Origin: Gallionella sp.
GTDB taxonomy: Bacteria > Pseudomonadota > Gammaproteobacteria > Burkholderiales > Gallionellaceae
Assembly (NCBI GenBank): GCA_030690245.1
Contig: JAUYGW010000245.1
Coordinates: 1-10,699 of the forward strand
Length of the DNA: 10,699 nt
Direction: 5' to 3'
Part shown: positions 5,836 through 10,672 of the stretch, one piece after another
How positions within the stretch are numbered: the first letter of the stretch is position 1
Layout of the letters: each line of letters opens with the position of its first letter
Notes under the pieces: generated by a model
The model's database searches: none
Told to the model about the DNA's origin: nothing
What the model saw: the letters and a program-made list of their open reading frames with translations, nothing else
Made by a program: the position numbers and the translations under genes

Positions 5836-5905
5836 AGGCCTACGAGATTTCGAAAGGACTCATTGGATTGGTTCGTGCTGGATTTGGACGTCAGGGCGAT
5901 TTTTA

Positions 5906-5934
5906 TTGCCAGTCATTCTTATGATCGTTAGAAT
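5906..5934 (+). promoter_or_regulatory. sigma70-like promoter of the ArsR-rhodanese operon
   Basis: TTGCCA (5906-5911, five of six consensus bases) and TAGAAT (5929-5934, five of six) are separated by the optimal 17 nt. Transcription from this promoter would begin about 7 nt after the -10 box, at or next to the A of the ATG at 5941. The transcript would therefore have essentially no 5' leader, in agreement with the lack of a ribosome-binding site before that ATG. Confidence 0.72.
5915..5934. promoter_or_regulatory. probable ArsR-family operator
   Basis: This 20-bp near-palindrome, ATTCTTATGATCGTTAGAAT, has 16 of 20 positions symmetric around a central GATC. It covers the last 14 bases of the promoter spacer and the complete -10 box. 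A/T-rich imperfect palindromes of this kind placed over the promoter are typical operators of ArsR/SmtB repressors. The adjacent gene encodes such a regulator, so autorepression by blocking RNA polymerase is the natural inference. Confidence 0.7.
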
Positions 5935-5940
5935 GTCAGC

Positions 5941-6609
5941 ATGAATAAGCGATTACTAAAAGACCTTCTATACGAACAGGTCGCCCGTATCGGCAAAGCC
6001 GCGTCCAGTCCGAAGCGATTGGAAATCCTGGAGCTATTGGCGCAAGGCGAGAAAACCGTTGAATCGCTCGCGAGCGAATTGTCGGCCGATATCAAGCTGA
6101 CCAGTGCCCACCTGAGAGTGCTGAAGGAAGCACGTCTGGTGACTTTTAGGCGTGAAGGCAAATACATCATCTATCAACTGGCTGGCAGCGATGTCGCGGG
6201 TCTGTGGGTGAGCCTGCGCCAAGTCGCTGAAGAGCACCTGCTCGAACTCAAGATGGCGCTCGGCCAGATGGTGGCCGATCCGGCAAAACTCTCTGCTGTC
6301 AGTCGCGACGTACTGCTGGAGCAGGCCAAGCGGGGCGAGGTATGCGTCATCGACGTGCGCCCGCTAAATGAGTACGAAACGGCCCACCTGCCTTTCGCTC
6401 GTTCGATGCCAGTGGCTGAGATCGAGCGGCGACTCGCTGAATTGCCGTCCGACCTGGAAATCGTCGCCTACTGCCGAGGCCCATTTTGCCTACTCTCCGA
6501 CGAGGCCGTCGCATTGCTCGCGGCGAAAGGCTATCGGGTACGCAAGATTCTCGATGGCGTTAGTGAATGGCAGGCGGCAGGCCTTCCGGTGGAGCACCTG
6601 GAATCATGA
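5941..6609 (+). CDS. ArsR-family regulator fused to a rhodanese domain
   Basis: This 222-residue protein joins an N-terminal ArsR winged-helix domain (about 10-100) to a C-terminal rhodanese domain (about 115-220). The first shows SSPKRLEILELLAQGEKTVE, the recognition-helix region LTSAHLRVLKEA (53-64) and the wing RREGKYIIY. The second shows VIDVRPLNEYETAHLPFARS and the loop CRGPFC, with probable catalytic Cys178 and a second Cys183. The ELCVCD metal site of arsenic/cadmium sensors is absent, so sensing of sulfane sulfur, persulfide or a related thiol signal through the rhodanese cysteines is plausible but unproven. The ATG at 5941 gives the usual N-terminus of this fusion family; it has no ribosome-binding site and probably starts a leaderless mRNA. 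Its stop overlaps the next gene (ATGA, 6606-6609). As first gene behind the operator it is likely the autoregulator of the cluster. Confidence 0.92.
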   Translation: MNKRLLKDLLYEQVARIGKAASSPKRLEILELLAQGEKTVESLASELSADIKLTSAHLRVLKEARLVTFRREGKYIIYQLAGSDVAGLWVSLRQVAEEHLLELKMALGQMVADPAKLSAVSRDVLLEQAKRGEVCVIDVRPLNEYETAHLPFARSMPVAEIERRLAELPSDLEIVAYCRGPFCLLSDEAVALLAAKGYRVRKILDGVSEWQAAGLPVEHLES

Positions 6610-7199
6610 GCATGAAGGGACGTGAAAGCGGCATGCCCGACGAAGCCTACTGGGCGAGTTTTTTCGAGGCAGAGGTCGTTATTGATCGGCTGCTGGGAAC
6701 GGCGGTACCGGGGAATGCCATCGAATTCGGCTGCGGTTATGGTTCTTTTACAGTGCCCGCCGCCCGACGTACGACAGGGCGTGTGATCGCCCTGGATATT
6801 GAGCCGGATATGGTCGACTGTGTGCGCCAGAAGTCGGCTGCTCTCGATCTGCCCAACATCCAAGCCGACGTGCGAGATTTTGTCGCACAAGGAACGGGTG
6901 TGGATTCCGAGTCGCTGGCGCACGCCATGATCTTCAACCTGCTGCATCTGGAGCACCCCGTCGCTCTTCTGCAAGAGGCGCACCGGATTCTCCGCGCTGA
7001 TGGCGTTTTGTCGGTCATTCATTGGCGCAGCGATATACCGACACCACGCGGCCCTTCCTTGGAAATCCGTCCAACGCCGGAACAATGTCGGGCATGGATG
7101 GCGGAAGCGGGCTTTGGCTCCATAGAAACCGTCGATTTACAGGAATGCAGTCCGTTTCATTTCGGACTTGTTGCCGCCCCCTTGAACCGCAAATATTGA
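6606..7199 (+). CDS. class I SAM-dependent methyltransferase
   Basis: This 197-residue protein has the Rossmann-type SAM-binding signature. Motif I EFGCGYG is at 40-46, the acidic end of strand 2 is ALDIEPDM with Asp64, and the ADVRDF segment follows. LLHLEHPVALLQEAHRILRADGVLSVIHW is typical of the Methyltransf_11/25 group. The substrate cannot be deduced. It lacks the cysteine set expected of an ArsM arsenite methyltransferase, so an arsenic role is not supported. The ATG at 6606 is chosen because it overlaps the regulator's stop codon and implies coupling; ATG 6612 is an alternative six bases later. The ilvB-type gene begins 9 bp after its stop. Position directly behind the ArsR-rhodanese gene suggests co-regulation and perhaps detoxification or modification of a small thiol, sulfur or metalloid compound (inference). 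Confidence 0.85.
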   Translation: MSMKGRESGMPDEAYWASFFEAEVVIDRLLGTAVPGNAIEFGCGYGSFTVPAARRTTGRVIALDIEPDMVDCVRQKSAALDLPNIQADVRDFVAQGTGVDSESLAHAMIFNLLHLEHPVALLQEAHRILRADGVLSVIHWRSDIPTPRGPSLEIRPTPEQCRAWMAEAGFGSIETVDLQECSPFHFGLVAAPLNRKY

Positions 7200-7208
7200 G
7201 AAAATGAC

Positions 7209-8903: not shown

Positions 8904-8904
8904 A

Positions 8905-9198
8905 ATGCAAAACATATGTTCAAACCGCACTGTTCTCGAGCTGACGGTGAACAACCACCCCGGAGTCATGTCGCATGTCGTCGGCCTCTTTTCGCGCCGC
9001 GCATACAACGTGGAGGGCATCCTCTGCCTGCCGGTTGGCGATGGAGACACCAGTCGCATCTGGCTACTGGTCAATGAAGACAAGCGTCTGCTGCAGATGA
9101 TCAAGCAGGCGGAAAAGCTGGAGGACGTGCAAAAAGTTCGACGCCTTGCCGCTGACGATAACCTGTTCGCTCGGCTGGAAAGTTTAATCATGGCTTGA
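8905..9198 (+). CDS. ilvN: acetohydroxyacid synthase I, small regulatory subunit (IlvN)
   Basis: This 97-residue protein consists of a single ACT domain and is almost identical in length to E. coli IlvN (96). It is far shorter than IlvH (about 160). The N-terminal half reads [15 protein letters not shown], then [18 protein letters not shown], the conserved valine-binding and subunit-contact region; [10 protein letters not shown] closes the domain. It activates the large subunit and confers feedback inhibition by valine in known AHAS I enzymes. The ATG at 8905 lies one base after the ilvB stop, so the two are translated together. The frame is open upstream inside ilvB, but that extension is overlap sequence and does not resemble an ACT protein. 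The short gap (59 bp) to trxB suggests a continuing transcript. Confidence 0.93.
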
Positions 9199-9257
9199 AG
9201 TGCCCTGCGTCAGCAGCCGACCAAAAAGCGCTTTTTCATTTTGAAGGGAAGAAACAC

Positions 9258-10211
9258 ATGTCTCAGACACAACATAGCCGTCTGCTCATTCTCGGTTCTG
9301 GTCCGGCCGGTTACACCGCTGCTGTCTATGCCGCCCGCGCCAATCTAGCGCCAGTGCTGATCACAGGCCTGGCCCAGGGTGGCCAATTGATGACCACCAC
9401 CGAAGTTGATAACTGGCCGGGCGCAACCAACGGTATCCAGGGCCAGGAACTGATGGCCAATCTCGAAGCGCATGCCCGCCGTTTCGACACTCAAATCATT
9501 TTTGATCATATACACACCGCCAAACTGACCGAGAAGCCCTTCACGTTGATCGGCGATGCCGGCACTTATACCTGCGATGCGCTGATTATTGCCACCGGCG
9601 CCTCGGCCCAGTATCTCGGCCTGCCATCCGAACAGGCATTTTCTGGTCGCGGCGTTTCGGCTTGTGCCACCTGCGACGGTTTTTTCTACCGCAACAAGCC
9701 GGTCGCTGTCGTCGGCGGCGGCAACACCGCCGTCGAAGAAGCGCTTTATCTTGCCAACATTGCTAGCCACGTCACCGTGATTCACCGGCGCGACAAATTT
9801 CGCGCCGAGAAGATCATGCAGGACAAGTTGTTTGAAAAGGAAAAGGCGGGAAAAGTCACCATCCTTTGGAAAAGCACTCTCGACGAAATTATCGGCGACG
9901 CTTCGGGGGTCACAGGGCTGCGTACCAAGAGCACGGTCGATGGCAGCACGCACGAAATCCCTGTTGACGGCGTCTTCATCGCGATCGGCCACAAACCGAA
10001 CACCGACTTGTTTGTTGGCCAACTGGAAATGGATGGTGGCTATCTGGTGACGCAATGCGGCCGCTACGGCAATGCGACGCTGACCAGCATTCCTGGGGTT
10101 TTTGCCGCTGGCGACGTTCAGGACAACATCTATCGGCAAGCCTGCACATCGGCTGGCACGGGCTGTATGGCCGCGCTGGACGCCGAGCGCTATCTCGACC
10201 AATTCTCATAG
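9258..10211 (+). CDS. trxB: thioredoxin reductase (NADPH, FAD)
   Basis: This 317-residue flavoprotein is close in length to E. coli TrxB (321). It passes electrons from NADPH through FAD and a redox disulfide to thioredoxin in the cytoplasm. Domains in order: FAD-binding GSGPAG at 13-18; redox pair C136-A-T-C139 followed by DGFFY; NADPH-binding GGGNTA at 153-158; the 2'-phosphate-recognising HRRDKFR at 176-182; and the C-terminal FAD motif FAAGDVQD followed by [14 protein letters not shown]. The ATG at 9258 follows an AAGGGA ribosome-binding site at 9244-9249; an in-frame upstream ATG at 9195 overlaps ilvN and gives a non-family N-terminus. No thioredoxin gene is in the window. The downstream gene is a DsrE-like protein, so a role in reducing persulfides or thiol carriers within the cluster is possible (inference). 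Confidence 0.94.
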
Positions 10212-10315
10212 CCTCCTTATGCCTTGATGCACCTCTAATAAGAGATCGCGAATTTCACAACGGAAGTTTCACGGCAGCATAGCCAATACCACCACCTTTA
10301 ATACTGGAGAAAATT

Positions 10316-10672
10316 TTGAAGATACTGATTATTTTCAATCGCGAACCCTACGACACCACTGATGTCACCTGGAACGCTCTGCGTCTGGCCGACAAATTGG
10401 TCGATGCAGGAAGTGAAGTCCGCCTGTTCTTAATGAACGATGCGGTCGACCTGGCGCGTGACGTTTGTCGCCCCCCCGAAGGGTACGATCAAGACCTGTC
10501 CCAGATGCTCAAAGCCCTGATCGCCCGTGGCGTCACCGTCAGGGTGTGCGGAACCTGCATGGCGCGTTGTGGCATTTACAAAAACCATCCGTATTTCGAG
10601 GGCGCCGAAAAATCAACCATGCCAGCCTTGGCGGAATGGGTCTTGGATAGCGATAAGGTCGTGTCGTTCTAA
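10316..10672 (+). CDS. DsrE/DsrF-like family protein
   Basis: This small cytoplasmic protein of 118 residues belongs to the DsrE/DsrF-like alpha/beta fold, which includes sulfur-relay carriers (TusD/DsrE) and many uncharacterised stand-alone members. Visible features are the KILIIFNREPYDTTD first strand and loop, LFLMNDAV in the middle, and VRVCGTCMARCG with Cys78, Cys81 and Cys85. One of these lies at the usual active-site position of stand-alone family members; Cys51 is a further cysteine. The start is TTG at 10316, supported by a GGAG ribosome-binding site at 10306-10309 with 6-nt spacing and by the family N-terminus. It lies 104 bp after trxB, a gap in which I found no convincing promoter or terminator, so it may be on the same transcript. 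A role in persulfide handling with the rhodanese and TrxB is inferred. Confidence 0.88.
   Translation: MKILIIFNREPYDTTDVTWNALRLADKLVDAGSEVRLFLMNDAVDLARDVCRPPEGYDQDLSQMLKALIARGVTVRVCGTCMARCGIYKNHPYFEGAEKSTMPALAEWVLDSDKVVSF

Follow-up and report, generated by a model that had tools for sequence, protein, structure and literature searches.

A Tn3-family transposon in Gallionella carrying a reactive-sulfur-type operon with acetohydroxyacid synthase genes

The right half of a 10,699-nucleotide stretch of Gallionella sp. DNA (contig JAUYGW010000245.1 of assembly GCA_030690245.1; the whole stretch is called the window below) carries six genes, which encode an ArsR-family regulator fused to a rhodanese domain (ArsR-rhodanese), a methyltransferase, both subunits of an acetohydroxyacid synthase (AHAS; IlvB and IlvN), a thioredoxin reductase (TrxB), and a DsrE-family protein. 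We found that a Tn3-family (Tn21-like) transposon, which inserted into a cysteine desulfurase gene and divided it, carries this operon as cargo. As judged by sequence comparison, the mobile core of operator, ArsR-rhodanese, methyltransferase, and DsrE recurs in other Tn3-type elements. Transposons of this family are a known kind; this one carries a reactive-sulfur-type operon with an unexpected biosynthetic passenger. We favor the view, which we hold to be slightly short of probable, that a mobile reactive-sulfur operon gained an AHAS that bypasses thiol-inhibited branched-chain amino acid synthesis.

A six-gene operon on a Tn3-family transposon

In what follows, G000 is the window's own genome bin, C166 is another contig of G000 (L150 being a stretch of C166), G001 is a congener genome, and G566 is a gammaproteobacterium genome. 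The features of the transposon and its operon are as follows.

5304..5797, - strand: C-terminal part of a cysteine desulfurase (NifS/IscS type), cut by the transposon (TIGR03402 positions 216-367)
L150 2224-2892 (C166), - strand: N-terminal part of the cysteine desulfurase, 214 residues (TIGR03402 positions 1-209)
5793..5797: target-site duplication ATAAA (other copy at L150 2251-2255)
5798..10699, + strand: left part of the Tn3-family transposon (the rest lies in an assembly gap, followed by the tnpA end and right inverted repeat at L150 1-2250)
5798..5835, + strand: left terminal inverted repeat (IR), 38 bp, Tn21 type (plasmid matches; repeats in C166 and G001)
5906..5934, + strand: promoter-like site TTGCCA-17-TAGAAT, the only one found in 5700-10699
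5914..5935, + strand: predicted palindromic operator CATTCTTATGATCGTTAGAATG, overlapping the -10 element (2 mismatches to consensus)
5941..6609, + strand: ArsR-family helix-turn-helix (HTH) part fused to a rhodanese domain with the loop CRGPFC (Cys178, Cys183) (PF01022, PF00581)
6606..7199, + strand: class I SAM-dependent methyltransferase (PF13649/PF08241; AlphaFold model pLDDT 89.9)
7209..8903, + strand: ilvB, AHAS isozyme I large subunit, Gln480 (NF006016, 947.5 bits, cut-off 870)
8905..9198, + strand: ilvN, AHAS isozyme I small subunit, 97 aa, single ACT domain (NF006036, 154.7 bits, cut-off 128)
9258..10211, + strand: trxB, thioredoxin reductase (TIGR01292, 396.2 bits, cut-off 343.45; CATC motif in the translation)
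10316..10672, + strand: DsrE-family sulfur-carrier-like protein, TTG start, CGTCMARC motif (PF02635, 70.4 bits)

Three lines of evidence establish the operon as transposon cargo. First, the 38-bp Tn21-type IR ends 1 bp before position 5836, where the operon stretch begins, which bears out an initial annotation of the window that had called these genes cargo-like and next to a transposon end. In a megablast search, positions 5790-10699 matched 1,891 plasmid records; for 18 of the 20 plasmid records among the matches listed, the match was the IR stretch alone (93-96% over 44-45 bases), and the other two matched a short piece of ilvB. The IR differs at 4 and 5 positions from the respective ends of the G001 transposon and at 3 from the C166 end (2213-2250); when G000 was searched with up to 2 mismatches allowed, a single further copy turned up, on C166 and in inverse orientation. 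Second, the last 738 codons of a Tn3-family transposase lie inside the C166 repeat, and the N-terminus of the cysteine desulfurase lies outside it. In amino-acid sequence, this tnpA product shares 95% identity with the transposase of the complete element in G001 (NF033527, 1309.8 of 500) across residues 252-989 of the latter, the first 251 residues falling in the assembly gap; over 2,250 bp, the tnpA end shares 92.3% identity with the best-matching plasmid transposases among the matches listed. Third, ATAAA is present at both flanks, and joining the flanks gives a single open frame of 384 aa in which the cysteine desulfurase is restored, its two pieces being partial TIGR03402 matches below the whole-protein cut-off. 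Based upon the matching IRs, the duplicated ATAAA, and the restored frame, positions 5798-10699 are therefore the left part of a transposon that interrupted a cysteine desulfurase gene.

The visible pieces of the transposon total ~7.15 kb, and its middle is absent from the assembly; a serine-recombinase open reading frame (below every NCBIfam cut-off) adjoins tnpA in G001 at the place where G000 has the gap, and no resolvase was seen in G000. The 38-bp IRs, 5-bp target duplication, and tnpA are shared with the mer and chr transposons of the Tn21 subgroup, whereas the passengers are sulfur-type and AHAS genes rather than mercury or antibiotic resistance genes. Among titles and the starts of abstracts, our literature search found no description of the gene set, of ArsR-rhodanese as transposon cargo, or of ilvBN on a Tn3 element; the nearest element among the articles listed was the chromate transposon TnOtChr (PMC3817168).

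All six open reading frames lie on the + strand, and Pfam and NCBIfam models confirmed the families that the initial annotation had named. Its description of overlaps or short gaps is accurate for the first four genes (a 4-bp overlap between ArsR-rhodanese and methyltransferase, then gaps of 9 bp before ilvB and 1 bp before ilvN) and fits less well for trxB and dsrE, which follow gaps of 59 and 104 bp, respectively. No terminator-like site was found inside the operon, and the contig ends 27 bases past dsrE, so the operon may continue further. None of the 14 NCBIfam models that matched the window methyltransferase at E 0.001 scored above its cut-off; the MddA model NF045656 was absent among them, and scores for ArsM-type models were low (25.7 of 510 for NF041537, 21.3 of 575 for NF041536, and 19.7 of 263 for NF008823). 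The DsrE protein belongs to the PF02635 superfamily and scored 27.8 of 89.25 against the TusD model TIGR03012.

The transposon landed within a native sulfur-type cluster (L150 2224-10003), whose genes encode the cysteine desulfurase, SHOCT-like, outer-membrane-like, and LolA-like proteins, an MMPL-like transporter, an SQR-like protein (226.6 of 525 for type III SQR), and DsrE; several of these names come from reading the translations alone. The cluster is divergent from a second ArsR-rhodanese (53%), and five of its genes recur at 77-81% identity beside a 68% ArsR-rhodanese in another genome (G047, L147).

The mobile core and the slot between methyltransferase and dsrE

The G001 element is complete (9.9 kb), with both IRs and its own duplication, AAATA, and encodes an ArsR-rhodanese (91% identical to that of the window), methyltransferase (82%), and DsrE (88%). 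Its further genes encode a PLP enzyme of the methionine gamma-lyase / sulfhydrylase group (an assignment below every model's cut-off), a second methyltransferase, the serine recombinase, the transposase, ChrA, a TSUP-like transporter, and a protein named PadR-like from reading alone. Window and G001 DNA are 82% identical over two blocks, one running from 5914, where the operator begins, to 7168 and the other from 10317 to 10670 (dsrE), and no match at E 1e-5 was found between 7168 and 10317. Both blocks recur in G566, with 72% and 80% DNA identity, and between them lies a gene for methanethiol S-methyltransferase, mddA, broken into two frames (224.8 and 86.5 bits, with a cut-off of 270 for the whole protein). 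The G566 copy has decayed: its methyltransferase gene contains a stop and changes of frame, and short remnants are left of the transposase and repeat. Hence, the slot between methyltransferase and dsrE holds ilvBN-trxB in the window and mddA in G566 and is empty in G001; because its content differs among the three elements compared, ilvBN-trxB is the content of an exchangeable slot. The link to the MddA/MddH/MddM S-methyltransferases of H2S and methanethiol lies in the slot position of the G566 mddA; the window methyltransferase itself is not MddA.

A Tn3-type element on Azotobacter salinestris plasmid NZ_CP045301 (L142) resembles that of the window in having a Tn3-type IR (one within the stretch compared, which stops at the end of the record), recombinase, ArsR-rhodanese (67%), DsrE, methyltransferase (63%), and tnpA (82-93% in three pieces); it differs in having an MBL hydrolase, MFS transporter, and rhodanese, in lacking ilvBN and trxB, and in gene order. 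The CGTCMARC motif, with three cysteines, occurs in the methyltransferase-linked DsrE proteins of the window, G001, and G566, and the Azotobacter and native-locus DsrE proteins have only CGTC there. As a separate case of ArsR-rhodanese beside Tn3 genes, an ArsR-rhodanese (44%) and a divergent MFS gene adjoin a recombinase and a Tn3 transposase (53% to that of G001) on Enterobacter cancerogenus plasmid NZ_CP045770 (L189). Methylocystis rosea plasmid pGW6_1 (L187, 1-5282) carries a two-sided module, with genes for cysteine desulfurase, DsrE, SHOCT, MFS, and MBL proteins on one side and, divergently, genes for ArsR-rhodanese, a methyltransferase, and DsrE and a fragment of the window-type methyltransferase on the other.

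The whole gene order was a different matter. We screened the best 80 of 596 GTDB loci containing ilvB relatives for matches to every window protein (13 of them a second time with a wider query set). The methyltransferase and DsrE were found in none of these loci; a 34% TrxB-like match lay ~7 kb away in one, and a 42% match to the HTH part lay ~6 kb away in another. Searches with ilvB at E 1e-165 gave 9 matches in 399 genomes of the order and 9 in 274 genomes of the class (own genome included in each), and 16 further ilvB loci from order and class had no regulator, methyltransferase, DsrE, or TrxB gene within the stretches compared, which for most were flanks of ~1.5 kb, such that a distant partner could be missed except in the three order loci fetched wider (L182-L184). 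With the methyltransferase at E 1e-40, matches numbered 3 in 399 genomes and 8 in 369 genomes (own included), as well as 32 plasmid records; the best plasmid ilvB was 59% identical, plasmid neighborhoods standing outside this comparison. In the neighborhoods read from the ilvB and methyltransferase searches (GTDB contigs, order, and class), there was no second instance of the full gene order. Thus, the recurrence of an ArsR-rhodanese plus IlvN order in unrelated genomes, which the initial annotation had put forward as a check, was not borne out: the whole set is so far confined to this genome, and only the core recurs. Unique here means unique among the neighborhoods read, a set that lies apart from the contig neighborhoods of protein cluster P0121. 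This cluster contains an IlvB 99% identical to that of the window and spans three contigs of up to 11,389 bp, and the clusters of the window TrxB and methyltransferase have one contig each; the other P0121 contigs may lack the neighbors of the insert or hold another version.

The ArsR-rhodanese regulator and its operator

Three sets of observations concern the regulator. First, we compared 27 ArsR-rhodanese neighborhoods out to 6 kb, some of them truncated where a contig or stretch ended; two were from the window's own genome, and two were drawn by the methyltransferase and the rest by the regulator. Partners were counted by tblastn at E 1e-8, so that distant family members are included. The most frequent were DsrE, MBL hydrolase, and MFS (17 each), followed by a second methyltransferase (9), rhodanese (8), the window-type methyltransferase (6), cysteine desulfurase (5), SQR (4), transposase (3), the PLP enzyme and TSUP (2 each), and MddA (1). 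Within the genus, a full-length ArsR-rhodanese (54-92% identity) is present in 16 of 36 relatives, a count that leaves out one at 42% and one partial, and at 15 congener loci other than G001 (up to 3.6 kb) the regulator stood beside DsrE in all 15, MBL in 10, and SQR in 3. Because its partners are mostly DsrE, MBL hydrolase, MFS, rhodanese, and SQR, the protein is likely a reactive-sulfur switch, and the sulfur-stress theme of the initial annotation persists across neighborhoods. These surroundings support a role in reactive-sulfur rather than metal responses and stop short of proving the inducer.

Second, the regulator gene is preceded by a conserved palindrome, in agreement with the ArsR-type operator proposed initially. 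The operator at 5914-5935 is the sole window match to the consensus CATTCTAAnnATCGTTAGAATG at 3 or fewer mismatches, and 200 shuffles gave zero matches. We drew up the consensus by visual inspection of 9 of the 27 loci, for the most part the closer ones; the others lack it at that place. For regulators of at least 64% identity, all 18 loci (window included) have the operator between -24 and -30; 11 of these loci were fetched after the consensus had been read, and in those 11 no more than 6 of the 22 positions mismatch. The single promoter-like site in 5700-10699 compares with 2.1 expected by chance and is weak evidence alone. From the overlap of operator and -10 element, we infer that ArsR-rhodanese autoregulates by repression. 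An operator-like palindrome, CAATCCAACGATTGTTGGAATG (9 of 11 pairs), also occurs at about 9239-9260 of L150, 117 bp upstream of the native ArsR-rhodanese and directly ahead of the divergent DsrE; the transposon regulator might bind there.

Third, Cys178 and Cys183 of the rhodanese loop were the only cysteines invariant in all 27 sequences. The loop reads YCRGP[FY]C in 26 of them; in Methylocystis, the P is replaced by R. Residues 1-134 of the window regulator, the HTH part, contain no Cys; 16 of the 27 homologs have a Cys at the site of window Ala34, which the window type lacks. In SqrR, sulfide is sensed via a cysteine pair of the ArsR domain, Cys41/Cys107 (PMC9774590), and ArsR-type sulfane-sulfur regulators lie near sqr, pdo, and rhodanese genes (PMC12423496). 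The window regulator shares the ArsR fold and sulfur oxidation or transfer neighbors with SqrR and BigR, whereas its candidate sensor cysteines are in the fused rhodanese domain rather than the ArsR domain; it scored 39.4 of 155 with the SqrR/BigR model NF040642.

Origin and possible role of ilvBN and trxB

The closest solved structure to window IlvB is that of acetolactate synthase isozyme 1 (6lpi). The window enzyme resembles E. coli AHAS isozyme I in subunit make-up, family models, and Gln480; by contrast, its genes lie on a transposon behind an ArsR-rhodanese operator, and identity to enterobacterial ilvB loci is 58-62%. The native AHAS large subunit of the same genome is 43% identical to window IlvB, and across the other 36 genomes of the genus, ilvB identity does not exceed 45%. 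In the order, 8 of 398 other genomes have ilvB at E 1e-165 or better (65-70% identity), 7 of them in one family. Other IlvB relatives reach 84% identity, with 82% in a betaproteobacterial bin and 72% in Accumulibacter; for TrxB, the best other relative is 88% identical, and those of Dechloromonas, Azonexus, and Rhodocyclaceae are 86% identical. A native TrxB matches at 71% over residues 47-314, where it is cut by a contig end, and an 85% match to residues 2-49 lies on another contig. Because the other genomes of the genus have no close ilvB and the nearer relatives are elsewhere, IlvBN is foreign to the genus, with a probable Rhodocyclales-like origin. GC content at third codon positions (GC3) is 0.66-0.67 for the ilvBN-trxB insert, 0.66 for both ArsR-rhodanese and DsrE, and 0.61 for the methyltransferase; the insert thus shows no sign of having arrived later than the core. 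The left half of the window (118-5030) is ordinary in content, with genes for an endonuclease/exonuclease/phosphatase-like protein, a PLD-domain protein, an ABC transporter (606 aa), and a PBP7-like peptidase, the first and last named from reading translations; four genes of this half have GC3 values of 0.69-0.80.

ArsR-rhodanese is likely an autoregulated repressor that senses reactive sulfur via its Cys178/Cys183 rhodanese loop and likely leaves the operator once this loop is persulfidated or bridged. Thiol or persulfide sulfur would then be capped by the methyltransferase, carried by DsrE, and reduced through TrxB. An excess of thiols would inhibit AHAS (and threonine deaminase) and with it the formation of branched-chain amino acids, and an additional AHAS I under its own control would keep valine and leucine synthesis running while the other genes clear sulfur. 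Derepression, thiol handling, reduction by TrxB, and a second AHAS fit into a coherent scheme when published findings are taken together. In Corynebacterium glutamicum, cysteine lowers AHAS activity by ~40%, its toxicity is eased by valine, and mutations in ilvN confer resistance (PMC11893703); a surplus of cysteine in E. coli hampers isoleucine formation at the threonine deaminase step (PMC7373191); and S-methyltransferases of H2S and methanethiol are proposed to detoxify these gases, transcription of mddA and mddH rising with them (PMC12904073). The C. glutamicum results give the backup role that the initial annotation had assigned to IlvBN a basis in principle, and we infer the bypass step itself.

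Several points weigh against this reading. The cited inhibition of AHAS is by cysteine, not sulfide, and of another enzyme, and the predicted fold of the methyltransferase gives no clue to its substrate. The window regulator lacks the sulfur-sensing cysteines of SqrR/BigR. Four regulators of lower similarity (53-59%) were compared as well: in one, the operator lies close to the start codon (-21), and the remaining three show only poorer matches (6-7 mismatches), 104-117 bp upstream. Further promoters would have room before trxB and dsrE, in the 59- and 104-bp gaps, though none was found. The G000 bin is fragmented (82.5% complete, 4.45% contaminated), and the link to C166 is made through the duplication and reading frame, not through continuous sequence. 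Finally, ilvB, ilvN, and trxB stand beside ArsR-rhodanese in just one of the 27 neighborhoods, that of the window itself.

Because the combination has been seen once, its main rival is that ilvBN-trxB are hitchhikers, captured from a Rhodocyclales-like donor into a tolerant slot and functionally unlinked to sulfur stress, an account we consider rather unlikely. The differing slot content of all three elements compared fits it, as do the named relatives of IlvB (Accumulibacter) and TrxB (Dechloromonas, Azonexus), which are Rhodocyclales-type betaproteobacteria. However, the three genes are intact and tightly packed (note the 9-bp and 1-bp gaps around ilvB), trxB suits the sulfur theme, and the matching GC3 values give no hint of later arrival.

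Resistance to metalloids or selenium is improbable. Here the CX4C loop would bind As(III), Te, or Se species and the methyltransferase would make volatile methylated products, in line with the ArsR family membership, the vicinal thiols, the ChrA gene of the G001 element, and an arsenic resistance protein gene ahead of the regulator in Hydrogenophaga; but the methyltransferase falls far under arsenite-methyltransferase cut-offs, and most regulator loci have sulfur-type partner genes. Slightly less credible again is that the Gln480 enzyme confers tolerance to natural or herbicidal AHAS inhibitors, with the sulfur genes as a separate trait. Changes at the inhibitor-contact Trp of AHAS give herbicide tolerance, E. 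coli AHAS I tolerates sulfometuron, and at this site the native large subunit reads RQW where window IlvB has Gln480, as do 120 of 120 IlvB homologs among the matches listed (the window's own included). Yet Gln480 is common to the entire isozyme group and marks no specific adaptation, and sulfur-type repressor control would be pointless. Very improbable is that the assembly gap hides the gamma-lyase-like gene of G001 and that AHAS removes the 2-oxobutyrate released: besides the G001 element, two other genomes do have PLP-enzyme homologs (76-78%) at a distance of 4-7 kb from the regulator, but the enzyme was not found in the G000 bin (best match 38%, partial), and AHAS isozyme I has little preference for 2-oxobutyrate.

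Returning to the reactive-sulfur operon with an AHAS bypass, a wider generalization is possible, albeit doubtful: a class of Tn3-type elements would spread reactive-sulfur tolerance as mer transposons spread mercury tolerance, with a fused-rhodanese switch and an exchanged slot for whatever sulfur stress breaks, filled by mddA to volatilize thiols or by a complete AHAS as a target bypass. If so, AHAS would be a main physiological target of thiol stress in nature. If the bypass alone is true, evolution placed AHAS in a thiol-stress operon, which would be independent support for the 2025 Corynebacterium finding that AHAS mediates cysteine toxicity, and IlvBN would be a ready-made candidate for a resistant enzyme. 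The element points to mobile reactive-sulfur tolerance cargo and to a type of ArsR repressor whose sensor appears to be the fused rhodanese domain, with an operator defined well enough for regulon searches.

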